Origin: Burkholderiales bacterium
Lineage (GTDB): Bacteria; Pseudomonadota; Gammaproteobacteria; Burkholderiales; JAEUOS01
Assembly: GCA_016790635.1 (NCBI GenBank)
Contig: JAEUOR010000074.1
Coordinates: forward strand, 186,001-250,000
Length of the DNA: 64,000 nucleotides
Reading direction: 5' to 3'
Made by a program: the position numbers and the translations under genes. Shown one piece after another: positions 8,662-20,178 of the stretch (position 1 is the stretch's first letter; every line of letters begins with the position of its first letter). The notes below the pieces were generated by a model. The model saw nothing but the letters and a program-made list of their open reading frames with translations, was not told where the DNA came from and did no database searches.

Positions 8662-9510
8662 TCAAAGCTTGGCCTGCAAAAAGCGCAGCAGCCGCGGCGC
8701 CAGGTACCCCGAATGGCTGCCTGGCTCCTCGATCGGTTCGGCGCACCAGAAGTGCGGCGCGCCGTTCACCACCACCGGACGTGCGTAGAAGCGCGCCTGC
8801 TTGAGCGCTTCGAGGAAGGCCTCGCTCTGGCTCTTGCAATCGACGATGTCGTCATGCGTGCCCCAGGCGACGAGAAACGCGGTGGTGTTGTCGCGCCCGG
8901 ACACATAGGACAAGGGTGACGCATCGAAATAGGCGCGCTTGTCGTCGATCGCGCTGACGCCCAGATGCGTCTCGGTGATCGGGTCGCGGGTGCGCGCCAG
9001 GAGGTCGTGGCGCCACTGCTGGAACAGGTCCAGCACCGCGTAGACCGGAACCGCGACCTTGACGCGGGTGGACAGCGCGCCGTGCGGATCACCGGCGTTG
9101 CCGTCCTTGAAGGCCGGATGGTCGCCGGCCAAGGCCACCATGGCAATCAGGTGCCCGCCTGCGGAATCCCCCATCAGCGCGATGCGCTCGGGGTCGATGC
9201 CCAGCGATTGCGCGTTGCCGCGCGCCCACTGTACCGCAGCGCGGATGTCGTGGAATGCCTCGGGGAAGGATTTTTTCCCCGGCGCGGAAAGCCGGTAGAG
9301 GGGCGCGAAAACCGCGTAGCCGCGCGCGGCGAGCCAGGCGCCCCAGTACTGGTAGTTGTCGGCATTGCGCGTATGCCAGGCGCCGCCGTGCACGCCGATC
9401 AATAGCGGCGCGCGCGTAGCGCCCTTGGGCAGCCACAGGTGGCCGGTCAATTTCTCTCCGCCGTGGACTGCGTACTCGACGTCGCGGCGCAACTCAAACG
9501 TGTCACTCAT
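8662..9510 (-). CDS. Alpha/beta hydrolase, hormone-sensitive lipase-like esterase
   Basis: 282 aa, no signal peptide. The oxyanion motif HGGAW, the elbow GDSAGG, an acidic residue in GTHDDIVD and the histidine in GAPHFWC give a complete catalytic triad of the BD-FAE/HSL-like group. The gene starts 3 bases after the end of serA, so it may be translated from the same message although nothing links it to serine synthesis. Substrate unknown. Confidence 0.85.
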   Translation of the reverse strand: MSDTFELRRDVEYAVHGGEKLTGHLWLPKGATRAPLLIGVHGGAWHTRNADNYQYWGAWLAARGYAVFAPLYRLSAPGKKSFPEAFHDIRAAVQWARGNAQSLGIDPERIALMGDSAGGHLIAMVALAGDHPAFKDGNAGDPHGALSTRVKVAVPVYAVLDLFQQWRHDLLARTRDPITETHLGVSAIDDKRAYFDASPLSYVSGRDNTTAFLVAWGTHDDIVDCKSQSEAFLEALKQARFYARPVVVNGAPHFWCAEPIEEPGSHSGYLAPRLLRFLQAKL

Positions 9511-9513
9511 GCT

Positions 9514-10707
9514 TCATGCTCCTTGGGAATGGACCGGCAGGTAGCGCACCGCCAGCACGCCCTTGATCGCGCCCAGCTCGTCGATGACGGCGGTGGGTAC
9601 GGCGCTGTCCACGTCCACCAGCGTGTAGGCCATCTCGCCCCGCGACTTGTTGAGCATGTTGTGAATGTTGAGCCCGGCGCGCGCCATGGCGGTGGAAATC
9701 TGCCCCAGCATGTTGGGTACGTTGGCATTGGCGATCGCCACCCGATATGGCGCCTCGCGCGGCATCGCGGTGTCGGGGAAGTTGACCGCGTTCCTGGTGT
9801 TGCCGTCCTCGAGGTAGTCGCGCAGCTGGTCGGCCACCATGGCCGCGCAGTTGTCCTCGGCCTCTTTGGTCGAAGCGCCCAGGTGGGGCAGCGCCACCAC
9901 CTGGCGATGCCCGCGCAGCTGCGGGCTCGGGAAGTCGCACACGTAGGACTTGAGGCGGTGTGACGCGAGCGCCCCCAGCACGGCGGCCTCGTCGACGATG
10001 GCCTCACGCGAGAAGTTGAGCAGGATCGCGCCTGCGCGCATGTGCTCGATGTTGGATGCCCCGATCAATCCGCGCGTGGCCGCCACCAGGGGCACGTGCA
10101 GGCTCACGAAGTGCGCGCCCTTCAACACCTCGTCGATGCTGTGCGCCTTTTTCACCTGGGACGGCAGGCTCCAGGCGGCGTCCACGGTGATTTCCGGGTC
10201 GTAGCCCAGCACGTGCATGCCCAGCTTGATGGCGGCATCGGCCACCAGGCAACCGATGCGCCCCAGTCCGATCACGCCCAGGGTGTGGCCGGCCAGTTCG
10301 AACCCGGCGAATTCCTTCTTGCCGTCCTCGACCTGGCGCTCGAACTCCTCCCCCGTGCCGGCCAGGGCGTCGGTGAAGCGCAGCGCCGGGGCCAGGTTGC
10401 GCGAGGCCATCAGCATGCCGGCCAGGACCAATTCCTTGACCGCATTGGCATTCGCGCCGGGAGCGTTGAATACCGGCACGCCGCGCTCCGAGAGCGCCTT
10501 GACCGGGATGTTGTTGGTGCCCGCGCCGGCACGGCCCACGGCCTTGACCGAGGCCGGGATGGCCATGGCGTGCATGTCCTGCGAGCGCACCATGATCGCG
10601 TCCGGGTCGGCGAGCGCCTTGCCGGTCACGTAGCGCTCGGCGGGCAGGCGCTTCAAGCCCGCCGCCGAGATCTGGTTCAAGAGCTGGATCTTGAAGGGCC
10701 TATCCAT
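9514..10707 (-). CDS. serA: D-3-phosphoglycerate dehydrogenase
   Basis: 397 aa; first step of serine synthesis, NAD-dependent oxidation of 3-phosphoglycerate. Seen: the substrate-domain motif [12 protein letters not shown], Rossmann GLGRIG, the arginine of NFSREAIVD, the histidine of [14 protein letters not shown], and a C-terminal ACT domain ([20 protein letters not shown]), the usual place for serine feedback. The length matches the short, three-domain class without an intervening domain. It overlaps serC by 8 bases. Confidence 0.93.
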
Positions 10708-11782
10708 GGCGCTTCTCGAAATCGCGCATCAGCGCCACCAGGGCCTCGACACCGGCAAGCGGCATGGCGTTGTAGATCGAGGCGCGCATGCCGCCCACCG
10801 AGCGATGGCCCTTCAGCTGCGCCATGCCGGCCGCCTCGGCGGCCTTGAGAAAGGGCGCGTCGAGCTTGTCGTCCTTGAGCGTGAAAACCACGTTCATGCG
10901 TGAACGGTCGCCCTTGGCCACCTTGTTCTGATACAGGCCGCTCGCATCGATGCAGTCGTAGAGCAGCTTGGCCTTGGCGATATTGCGCGCTTCCATGGCA
11001 GCCAGGCCACCGCCCTTCTTGAGCCACTGGAACACCAGCCCGGCCATGTAGATCGGATAGGTCGAAGGCGTGTTGTACATGGACTCGGCCTCCGACTGCG
11101 CCTTGTAGTCGAACACCCAGGGGGTGGTCGGCAAGGCCTGGCCGATCAGGTCCTCGCGCACGATCACCACCGTCAAGCCGGCAATGCCCATGTTCTTTTG
11201 CGCGCCGCCATAGATGAGGCCGAACTTGGACACATCCACCGGACGCGAGAGGATGTGCGAGGACATGTCGGACACCAGCGGCAGGTCGCCGGTCTCCGGG
11301 GTCCATTGGTATTCCAGTCCGCCGATGGTCTCGTTGCTGCAGATGTGCACATAGGCCGAATCCTTCGACAGGCGCCATTCGCTCTGCGCCGGGATCGCGG
11401 TGAAGCCGGTGGCCTTGCCCGAAGCGGCGATGTTGACGGTGCAGTACTTCTGCGCTTCCTTGATCGACTTCTTGGACCAGTCGCCGCTGTCGATGTAATC
11501 CGCCACCGTGCGACCACGCAGCAGGTTCATGGGCACGATGGCGTTCTGCGCCAGCGCGCCGCCCTGCAGGAACAGCACCTTGTAGTTGGCGGGGATCGCC
11601 ATCAGTTCGCGCAGGTCGGCCTCGGCCGCGGCAGCGATGGAGATGAACTCCTTGCCGCGATGGCTCATTTCCATGACCGACATGCCGCTGCCGCGCCAGT
11701 CGAGCAGTTCGTCAGCGGCCTGGCGCAGCACCTCCTCGGGCAGGGTGGCGGGGCCGGCGGAAAAGTTGAAGACTCGGGTCAT
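10700..11782 (-). CDS. serC: Phosphoserine aminotransferase
   Basis: 360 aa from the ATG at 11782. It converts 3-phosphohydroxypyruvate and glutamate to phosphoserine. The start [20 protein letters not shown] and the PLP-lysine motif GGAQKNMG are diagnostic, as is the C-terminal [17 protein letters not shown]. The reading frame is open far upstream, but that part opposes rtcB and is not protein-like. serC and serA form an overlapping pair. The start is 69 bases from the divergent rtcB start. Confidence 0.95.
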
Positions 11783-11851
11783 TGTTGTCTTGCCGACGAC
11801 AAAGGGGCGCGCCGGATGTGGAAAACTTGCCATTCTAAGGAAAGCGCACCC

Positions 11852-13072
<1,221 letters not shown>

Positions 13073-14150: not shown

Positions 14151-14924
14151 ATGAATCTCCATCTGGACGGCAAGGTCGCAATCGTTACCGGCGGCTCGCA
14201 AGGTATCGGCCGCGCGACCGCGGCGACGCTGGCGGCCGAAGGCGCGAGCGTGGTCATCGCCGCGCGCGGACGCGAACGGCTGGAAGAAGTGGCGGGCGCG
14301 ATCCGCGCCGCCGGCGGCAAAGTGGCGCACGTCGTGGCGGACGTGTCGCAGGCCGCCGACTGTGAACGCATCGTCGCCGCGGCGGTGCGGGAGTTCGGCC
14401 GCCTGGACATCCTCATCAACAACGCCGGCACCTCGGCCACCGGCGAGTTCCAGTCGGTCACCGACGCGGCCTGGCAGGCCGACTTCGACCTCAAGCTATT
14501 CGGCGCGATACGCCTGGCGCGCCTGGCGATCCCGCACATGCAAAAGCAGGGCGGCGGACGCATCGTCAACCTGACCAACATCGGTGCCAAGCAGCCGCGC
14601 GCCAAGAGCATGCCCACCACCGTGACACGCGCCGCCGGGCTGGCCTTCACCAAGGCACTGTCGAAGGAGTTCGCGCCGCACAACATATTGGTCAATACCG
14701 TGTGCATCGGCCTGATCCGCGCCGGCCAGCACGAATCCAAGGCGGCCAAGGCGGGCAAGGACGTCGAGGAGGTCTACGCCGGCATGGGCCGCGACATTCC
14801 GCTCGGGCGCGTCGGCCGCGCCGAAGAGGTAGCCAACGTAATCGCATTCCTCGCCTCCGAGGCCGCCAGTTACGTGACCGGCACCAGCATCAACCTGGAT
14901 GGCGGCACCTCCGGGGTCTTGTAG
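14151..14924 (+). CDS. SDR-fold protein with all four catalytic positions replaced
   Basis: 257 aa, classical short-chain dehydrogenase fold: the nucleotide motif TGGSQGIG (residues 13-20), NNAG (90-93) and a C-terminal LDGGTSG are intact, so a dinucleotide probably still binds. The catalytic Asn, Ser, Tyr and Lys are changed: by alignment to FabG-type enzymes they are K115, N143, T156 and R160 (the YxxxK motif reads TTVTR). It may be inactive, a binding protein, or an enzyme with another chemistry. It lies between the GST and an acyl-CoA dehydrogenase gene, both co-directional. Confidence 0.85.
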   Translation: MNLHLDGKVAIVTGGSQGIGRATAATLAAEGASVVIAARGRERLEEVAGAIRAAGGKVAHVVADVSQAADCERIVAAAVREFGRLDILINNAGTSATGEFQSVTDAAWQADFDLKLFGAIRLARLAIPHMQKQGGGRIVNLTNIGAKQPRAKSMPTTVTRAAGLAFTKALSKEFAPHNILVNTVCIGLIRAGQHESKAAKAGKDVEEVYAGMGRDIPLGRVGRAEEVANVIAFLASEAASYVTGTSINLDGGTSGVL

Positions 14925-14958: not shown

Positions 14959-16080
14959 ATGCACACCGACCATCCCCTGGTTGACGCGGCCCGCCGCTTC
15001 GTGGCCGATTGCGTGGCCCCGCGCCTTGACGCCGGTGACCCTCCCTGGCTGGATGGCGCGCTGGCGCGTTCGGCGGCCGGGTTCGGCCTCCTGGGAATCA
15101 CCGTGCCAGCGGCATTTGGCGGCGCGGACGCCGGTTTCATGGCCAAGGCGCGTGTCTCTGAAGAGCTCTCCCGCGCTGATTTCGGCCTGGCCATGGCGCT
15201 CATCAACTCGCACAACGTCGCCGACAACCTGGCGCGCAACGCCGACCCGGAAGTCGCGCGTCGCTATGTGAGTGAAATCGTCGCCGGGCGCCTGGCGGCG
15301 TGTACCGCGCTCACAGAGCCAGGAGCCGGATCGGACTTCGCGTCCATCACCACCACCGCGCGCCAGGACGGGGGCGAATGGGTCCTGGACGGCACCAAGG
15401 CCTGGATCATCAATGCCACCCGCAGCGGCGTCGTCATCCTGTACGCGCAGACGCAGCCCGGCAGCGGCGCAGCCGGGATCGCCAGCTTTGTCGTCGATGC
15501 GTCGCGCGCGGGCTTTGTGCGCGAGGCACCGCTGACGCGCGCCCTGCCGGCGCTGGGCACCGGCGCGTTCCGCCTTGTGGGCTATCGTGCATCGGCAAAC
15601 GAGATGCTTGTGCCACCGGGCCAGGCATTTAAGCGGGCGCTCACTTCAATCAATGGCGCCCGCATCTATGTGGCGGCGATGTGCTGCGGCATGGTCGGCG
15701 CGGCGCTTGATGTGGCCATCGCGTACGGCGGTGCGCGGCACAGCTTCGGCAAGCCGCTCCTGGCGCACCAGGCGTGGCGCCATGCGCTCGCCGATGCGGC
15801 CGTCGAGTTGGAGGCCGCACGTCTGCTTGTTTACGACGCAGCGCGACGGCTCGAAAATGGCGAGGACGTGCAGGGCGGCGCCGCACGTGCCAAGGTGTTC
15901 GCCACCGGCATGGCGCAGCGCCAGCTCACTGCCCTGCTGCACGCCATGGGGGCGGCCGGGCTGTCCGACCGCCACCCGTTCCTGCGCCATCTCGAGTCGG
16001 CCCAGGCCGCCGCCTTCACCGATGGCTCGACCGAAATGCTCAAGGAGCGCATCGCCCGCGAATTCGGGAGCCAGGCATGA
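14959..16080 (+). CDS. Acyl-CoA dehydrogenase family protein
   Basis: 373 aa. FAD/substrate motifs are visible: LTEPGAGSDFASI, WVLDGTKAWIINA and the arginine region GGARHSFGKPL. At the C-terminus the usual EGTxE catalytic motif reads TDGSTEMLKERIARE, with Asp where Glu is usual. I use the ATG at 14959; an in-frame upstream start would overlap the SDR gene. The stop overlaps the next gene's start (ATGA), so the two are translationally coupled. The substrate is unknown. Confidence 0.85.
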   Translation: MHTDHPLVDAARRFVADCVAPRLDAGDPPWLDGALARSAAGFGLLGITVPAAFGGADAGFMAKARVSEELSRADFGLAMALINSHNVADNLARNADPEVARRYVSEIVAGRLAACTALTEPGAGSDFASITTTARQDGGEWVLDGTKAWIINATRSGVVILYAQTQPGSGAAGIASFVVDASRAGFVREAPLTRALPALGTGAFRLVGYRASANEMLVPPGQAFKRALTSINGARIYVAAMCCGMVGAALDVAIAYGGARHSFGKPLLAHQAWRHALADAAVELEAARLLVYDAARRLENGEDVQGGAARAKVFATGMAQRQLTALLHAMGAAGLSDRHPFLRHLESAQAAAFTDGSTEMLKERIAREFGSQA

Positions 16081-16709
16081 GCCTGCCCCCGCCCGCGCTG
16101 GATCGACCCGCGCTGATCGTGGTCGACATGCAGAATGACTTCGTGCGCAGGGGCGCGCCGCTGGAGGTGCCGGATGCACGCCTGACCCTTCCGACGCACC
16201 AGCGCCTGATTGCAGCCTTTCGCGCCGTGCCCGCGCCGGTGCTCTACACGCGCTTCATCGCCACGCCCGAGCCCAGCCTCCTCTGGAACTGGTCGCCGCA
16301 GTGCGCACCGCCGACCTCGATGTGCCGCCCTGGCGTGCGGCGACGCTACGACGACGTGCAAGGCGAACGCGATGCGGCGGATGTCGTCGATGAGATCGCA
16401 CCGCAGCCCGGCGACACCCTCATCGACAAGTACGGCTACGGCGCGTTCCACGGCACGCGCCTGTCCGACACCCTGCGCCAGCGCGGCGTGCGCACGCTCA
16501 TCATTACCGGTACGGTCACGCAAATCTGCGTCGAAGAGACCGCGCGCGAGGCCTTCCATCACGGCTTCGAGACCATCGTTGTCGCCGACGCCGTCTCGTC
16601 ATTCGCGCCGGACCTGCACGCAGCCACGCTCAAGAATTTCGCGATGAAGTTCGGCTGGGTCGAGAATGCCGATGATGTCCTTTTGCGACTGCGAACAATC
16701 GGCGCCTGA
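16077..16709 (+). CDS. Isochorismatase-like cysteine hydrolase
   Basis: 210 aa. The catalytic triad of the family is seen: Asp in LIVVDMQNDF (about residue 17), Lys in IDKYGYGAF, and Cys in TGTVTQICVEETAREAF. Relatives hydrolyse amides or carbamates (nicotinamide, N-carbamoyl compounds) or isochorismate; the sequence alone does not choose. It starts within the stop of the acyl-CoA dehydrogenase gene (ATGA overlap). Confidence 0.87.
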   Translation: MSLPPPALDRPALIVVDMQNDFVRRGAPLEVPDARLTLPTHQRLIAAFRAVPAPVLYTRFIATPEPSLLWNWSPQCAPPTSMCRPGVRRRYDDVQGERDAADVVDEIAPQPGDTLIDKYGYGAFHGTRLSDTLRQRGVRTLIITGTVTQICVEETAREAFHHGFETIVVADAVSSFAPDLHAATLKNFAMKFGWVENADDVLLRLRTIGA

Positions 16710-17826: not shown

Positions 17827-17952
17827 AGTCCGCCGCCCGGCGCCGCTGCGCGCCAATCCGGGACCGCCTTGAGTACGATCAAGGTTGTCAATGGGTTTGC
17901 CCGTAGAATTTGTCGGTTTCGCCCCCCGACCGACCTGCCCGGACTTAATGCC

Positions 17953-20178
<2,226 letters not shown>

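Follow-up and report, generated by a model that had tools for sequence, protein, structure and literature searches.

An SDR-fold protein from a Burkholderiales bacterium with a conserved K-x-T-R pattern in place of the classical tetrad and a predicted NADPH site

The stretch of 64,000 nucleotides from a Burkholderiales genome analysed in this study (the window) encodes an SDR-like protein in which the complete catalytic tetrad is replaced. The question raised by this locus is whether such a protein has decayed, has taken over a role outside redox chemistry, or is still an enzyme with a different active site. The gene is situated on the forward strand at 14151..14924 and forms an open frame of 257 codons starting from ATG with no internal stops, so that the first-pass annotation was right to describe it as free of frameshifts. 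Pfam profiles adh_short_C2 and adh_short matched the protein at 2.1e-55 and 3.8e-49, respectively, and scores of 167 and 188 bits were obtained for the classical SDR superfamily profiles (PF00106/PF13561), with cut-offs near 27. An AlphaFold2 model built from 43 family members had a mean pLDDT of 92.7 and a pTM of 0.91. This model, which matches SDR structures along its whole length, including L-sorbose reductase 3ai3 (Z 37.9, rmsd 1.7 across 257 residues), is that of a classical SDR fold. Among the best 25 NCBIfam models, none scored above its own cut-off for the window SDR, and a family-wide NCBIfam scan, with cut-offs printed for only some of the members, gave no better-placed model.

Fold, length and cofactor motifs are shared with classical SDRs such as 3ai3 and FabG, but the whole Asn-Ser-Tyr-Lys tetrad of these enzymes is replaced. 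Alignment with 18 canonical SDRs and with 60 further SDRs encoded in this genome placed K115 (14493..14495) at the position of the tetrad Asn, N143 (14577..14579) at that of Ser, T156 (14616..14618) at that of Tyr and R160 (14628..14630, all on the + strand) at that of Lys. The protein carries K-N-T-R where typical classical SDRs have N-S-Y-K, which confirms the replacement of four residues proposed at first reading. The observation named there as speaking against it, a displaced Tyr-x3-Lys pair, was searched for across the whole protein and was found nowhere. The only tyrosines present are Y209 and Y241, neither of them with Lys at +4, and just 2 of 92 homologues contain a Y-x3-K, which falls within the lid helix (position 208); the claim of replacement stands.

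For the study of conservation, a contig scan of genomes yielded 80 loci with relatives at 51-82% identity, and further ones were taken from 60 related genomes. The homologues (n = 98) come from Beta- and Alphaproteobacteria, Chloroflexota and Sorangium. Cultured carriers of the gene include Cupriavidus sp. YR651 and Zwartia hollandica. Lys115 and Arg160 are present in all 98, while position 156 is Thr in 97 and Ser in one. Codon changes counted at these positions were 11 synonymous and none nonsynonymous for K115, 34 and one for T156, and 33 and two for R160, where the two nonsynonymous steps arise only from the inferred path linking CGN with AGG codons, as every sequence has Arg. Position 143 is variable in the family (N 52, M 17, I 13, T 11, A 3, Q 1, S 1) and the true signature, as read from the alignment, is therefore K-x-T-R without this position. 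Of the four residues whose presence in homologues was to be checked, K115, T156 and R160 are retained, while N143 is no family signature. Two further residues mark the family: D111 (14481..14483, +), near K115, is Asp in 98/98 and hydrophobic or variable in canonical SDRs, and Q193 (14727..14729, +) is kept in 95/97. Together with K147, P149, P155, K168 and N248 they are invariant or nearly so in the family, and canonical SDRs differ at these positions.

The parsimony codon count on 92 sequences, a check proposed at first reading, gave an overall dN/dS of about 0.25 and indicates purifying selection; the counts are rough owing to saturated synonymous changes, but their direction is clear. Purifying selection on the replaced residues is strong and extends over at least two phyla. 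That the gene is a decaying pseudogene, or the replacement an artefact of alignment, is extremely improbable in view of the open frame, this selection, the family-wide invariance and the lack of a displaced Y-x3-K; nothing speaks for it beyond the missing tetrad itself. Decay was rejected on the selection counts at positions 115, 156 and 160 together with the family-wide invariance, and the earlier view of conservation rather than decay is well supported by the few amino-acid changes and by the 98/98 (K115, R160) and 97/98 (T156) retention. Tandem copies of the family were also observed: a Dehalococcoidia MAG encodes three in a row (L101:763-3105) with the patterns K-Q-T-R, K-T-T-R and K-T-T-R, and a betaproteobacterium (L082) carries two. 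It is possible that these form hetero-oligomers or are sub-specialised copies.

The nucleotide site, described as intact in the first-pass annotation, is indeed so. The glycine motif TGGSQGIG (T13-G20; 14187..14210, +) has G14, G18 and G20 invariant in 97/97 homologues, the NNAG motif (residues 90-93; 14418..14429, +) has N90, N91 and G93 invariant, and D64 is likewise a family-invariant cofactor-site residue. Past strand beta-2 follows an invariant arginine, R39 (14265..14267, +), the expected ligand of the 2'-phosphate of NADPH. It was found in 97/97 members of the family and in 10/10 proteins of a sister group with the pattern K-G-x-N, and in only 4/18 canonical SDRs; equivalents are present in NADPH-bound 3lf2, in AerF and in sorbose reductase. 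Since R39 is invariant, rare in canonical SDRs and shared with NADPH-bound 3lf2 and AerF, NADPH is the expected cofactor, a prediction to which the intact glycine motif also contributes.

A K-x-T-R active site is already known from the solved structure 3lf2 of the Pseudomonas aeruginosa short chain oxidoreductase Q9HYA2, released in 2010 under the title 'NADPH Bound Structure ... Containing an Atypical Cataly...'. K118, S146, T159 and R163 of Q9HYA2 (3lf1/3lf2) correspond to positions K115, N143, T156 and R160 of the window SDR, so that in both proteins Lys, Thr and Arg replace the Asn, Tyr and Lys of the tetrad; the alignment to 3lf1 was obtained via a short motif fragment and a chimeric query, and the residues quoted are those of the PDB sequence itself. 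Both proteins further share the Arg39 equivalent, a GQ signature containing Q193 (GLVESGQW in Q9HYA2, GLIRAGQH in the window SDR) and 36% identity, and the 3lf2 crystal holds NADPH. Q9HYA2 differs in having Ser146 instead of Asn at position 143 and in lacking the K147, D111 and Y209 of the window SDR. The K-x-T-R residue pattern is certainly common to Q9HYA2 and the family. Among 133 mixed SDRs, the nearest matches of Q9HYA2 all belong to the family (151 bits vs 127 for the best other protein), and FastTree placed Q9HYA2 as its sister with a local support of 0.95. Bootstrapping with 60 FastTree trees gave weaker support, recovering the family alone in 53/60, the family with Q9HYA2 in 20/60 and all Lys115 proteins together in 1/60. 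The family and Q9HYA2 may well descend from a common ancestor. We take Q9HYA2 to be of the PRK07062/NF005468 type, and its atypical residues were reportedly described by Huether and colleagues in Protein Science in 2010. The window SDR reached 204.9 bits with the NF005468 PRK07062 equivalog model, below the cut-off of 266 and thus outside the curated family. A search for PRK07062 hits above cut-off among the relatives returned none, but its positive control gave no match either, and the result carries little weight.

AerF of Microcystis aeruginosa is both the best Foldseek match (rank 1, 38% identity) and the best PDB sequence match. Its structure is known for the free protein (6jh7), for the NADPH complex (6jha) and for a complex that holds 4-hydroxyphenylpyruvate in addition to NADPH (6jhb). 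AerF takes part in aeruginosin biosynthesis, and the reaction reported for it is the reduction of a double bond and not of a carbonyl. Like the window SDR, it has Lys at the Asn position, has lost Tyr and Lys and contains K147 and P149; it binds NADPH, as is predicted for the window SDR. However, its pattern is K-G-S-N, with Gly at 143, Ser at 156 and Asn at 160, so that the two active sites differ, and it groups with the K-G-x-N proteins and not with those of K-x-T-R type; the window SDR, having N at 143 and R at 160, lacks the K-G-x-N pattern of the AerF/BacG type. The AerF group joined the family with local supports of 0.17-0.91 in single trees and in 1/60 bootstraps. A similar relation was found for NF004779 / PRK06125, one copy of which is also encoded in the genome of the window: Lys at the Asn position, the loss of the tetrad and R39 are shared, while the pattern is K-G-G-N and the window SDR scored 190 bits vs a cut-off of 261.

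Variation of the tetrad is common among the SDRs of this genome. Tyr is missing in 9 of 61 aligned proteins, with patterns including T-S-S-R, N-S-S-R, N-A-S-R, K-G-G-N and V-V-S-K, the most divergent alignments being less certain; replacement of all four residues occurs mostly where Asn has become Lys. Five further SDRs of the genome (L117, L126, L129, L130 and L146) show S-x3-R at the Tyr and Lys positions. The alignments suggest that Arg at the position of the tetrad Lys occurs in several SDR groups.

The first-pass annotation had concluded a non-dehydrogenase role from the loss of all four residues. As stated, this is not borne out, because the two closest solved relatives (3lf2 and 6jha/6jhb) bind NADPH. 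The loss of the tetrad counts against Tyr-based carbonyl or alcohol chemistry, not against redox catalysis, and a role without catalysis is less likely than that of an atypical NADPH-dependent reductase. Most probably, the window SDR belongs to the atypical K-x-T-R (Q9HYA2-type) branch of the classical SDR fold and is functional, binding NADPH and acting as a hydride-transfer enzyme. Hydride would still be transferred from NADPH. Because the Tyr-Lys acid for a carbonyl oxygen is absent, the proposed substrate is one that needs none, such as a conjugated C=C bond (enal, enone, enoyl) or an iminium. By analogy with AerF and NapW, conjugate C=C or iminium reduction would do without an acid of this kind at the centre that accepts the hydride; NapW is described in PMC8648761 as an SDR that reduces an iminium and in which Asp165 is the key residue. 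Judging from the alignment, K115, R160, D111 and Q193 would sit around the nicotinamide. Together with T156 they may form the lining of the former active site, where an anionic or carbonyl group of the substrate would be bound or polarised, and such a polar, positively charged pocket could hold a carboxylate, a thioester carbonyl or a phosphate. The proton could come from water or from another residue, e.g. the largely conserved Y209 in the lid helix.

An oxidoreductase still acting on carbonyls or alcohols, with K115 or a Thr156-Arg160-water network as acid in a rewired proton relay, would fit the intact cofactor site and the complete SDR fold, which closely resembles that of sorbose reductase 3ai3, and the invariant K115 and R160 could serve as acid and electrostatic helper. 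Thr and Arg are, however, poor general acids at neutral pH, and the tetrad-less AerF, according to the reaction reported for it, reduces a double bond rather than a carbonyl, so that we regard this chemistry as unlikely. That the family (D111, K115, K147, P155, T156, R160, Q193) represents an enzyme class with a reaction of its own, and with a Lys115/Arg160 proton relay new for SDRs, is put forward as a tentative and rather doubtful proposal. Quite improbable is a non-redox protein, be it an NADP(H)-binding sensor, a scaffold or the inactive partner subunit of another SDR. The complete loss of the classical tetrad and the tandem copies in L101 and L082 are compatible with it, as is the presence of the BbsCD heterotetramer among the structural matches, since some members of the superfamily have an inactive subunit as partner; in BbsCD one of its subunits is presumably inactive. 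No SDR partner gene consistently adjoins the family, however, and the conserved polar residues K115, D111, T156, R160 and Q193 in or near the old active site would be needless for a scaffold.

The surroundings of the gene were analysed as well. In the window, a glutathione S-transferase-like gene lies 13 bases upstream of the SDR gene, and an acyl-CoA dehydrogenase gene lies on its 3' side in the block 14959-16709, followed at approximately 16.0-16.7 kb by an apparent isochorismatase-like frame, recognized by eye and overlapping in the automatic ORF list. Region 8662-13072 encodes an alpha/beta hydrolase and a SerA-like D-2-hydroxyacid dehydrogenase, with long frames resembling SerC and RtcB by eye from the translation, and a monomeric isocitrate dehydrogenase (PF03971, 1259 bits) is located at 17869-20178. 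The arrangement in the window is not kept in relatives, and no conserved neighbour was found across 88 loci; Bug/TctC-type receptors were the commonest neighbours, but their position differed between loci, which is usual for Burkholderiales. An assignment of function from the neighbourhood was rejected, as the neighbours vary widely and no operon that would indicate a pathway is conserved. Judged by its genomic setting, the gene may belong to the peripheral catabolism of Burkholderiales-type bacteria.

The name dehydrogenase is usually given to SDRs on the strength of their fold alone. With the K-x-T-R site known from 3lf2, what the window contributes is further members and a clear signature of conservation, not a new concept. 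Active sites that are conserved but different are a reminder that SDR names based on fold can be wrong, and families such as the present one are candidates for double-bond or imine reductions that are still unassigned.
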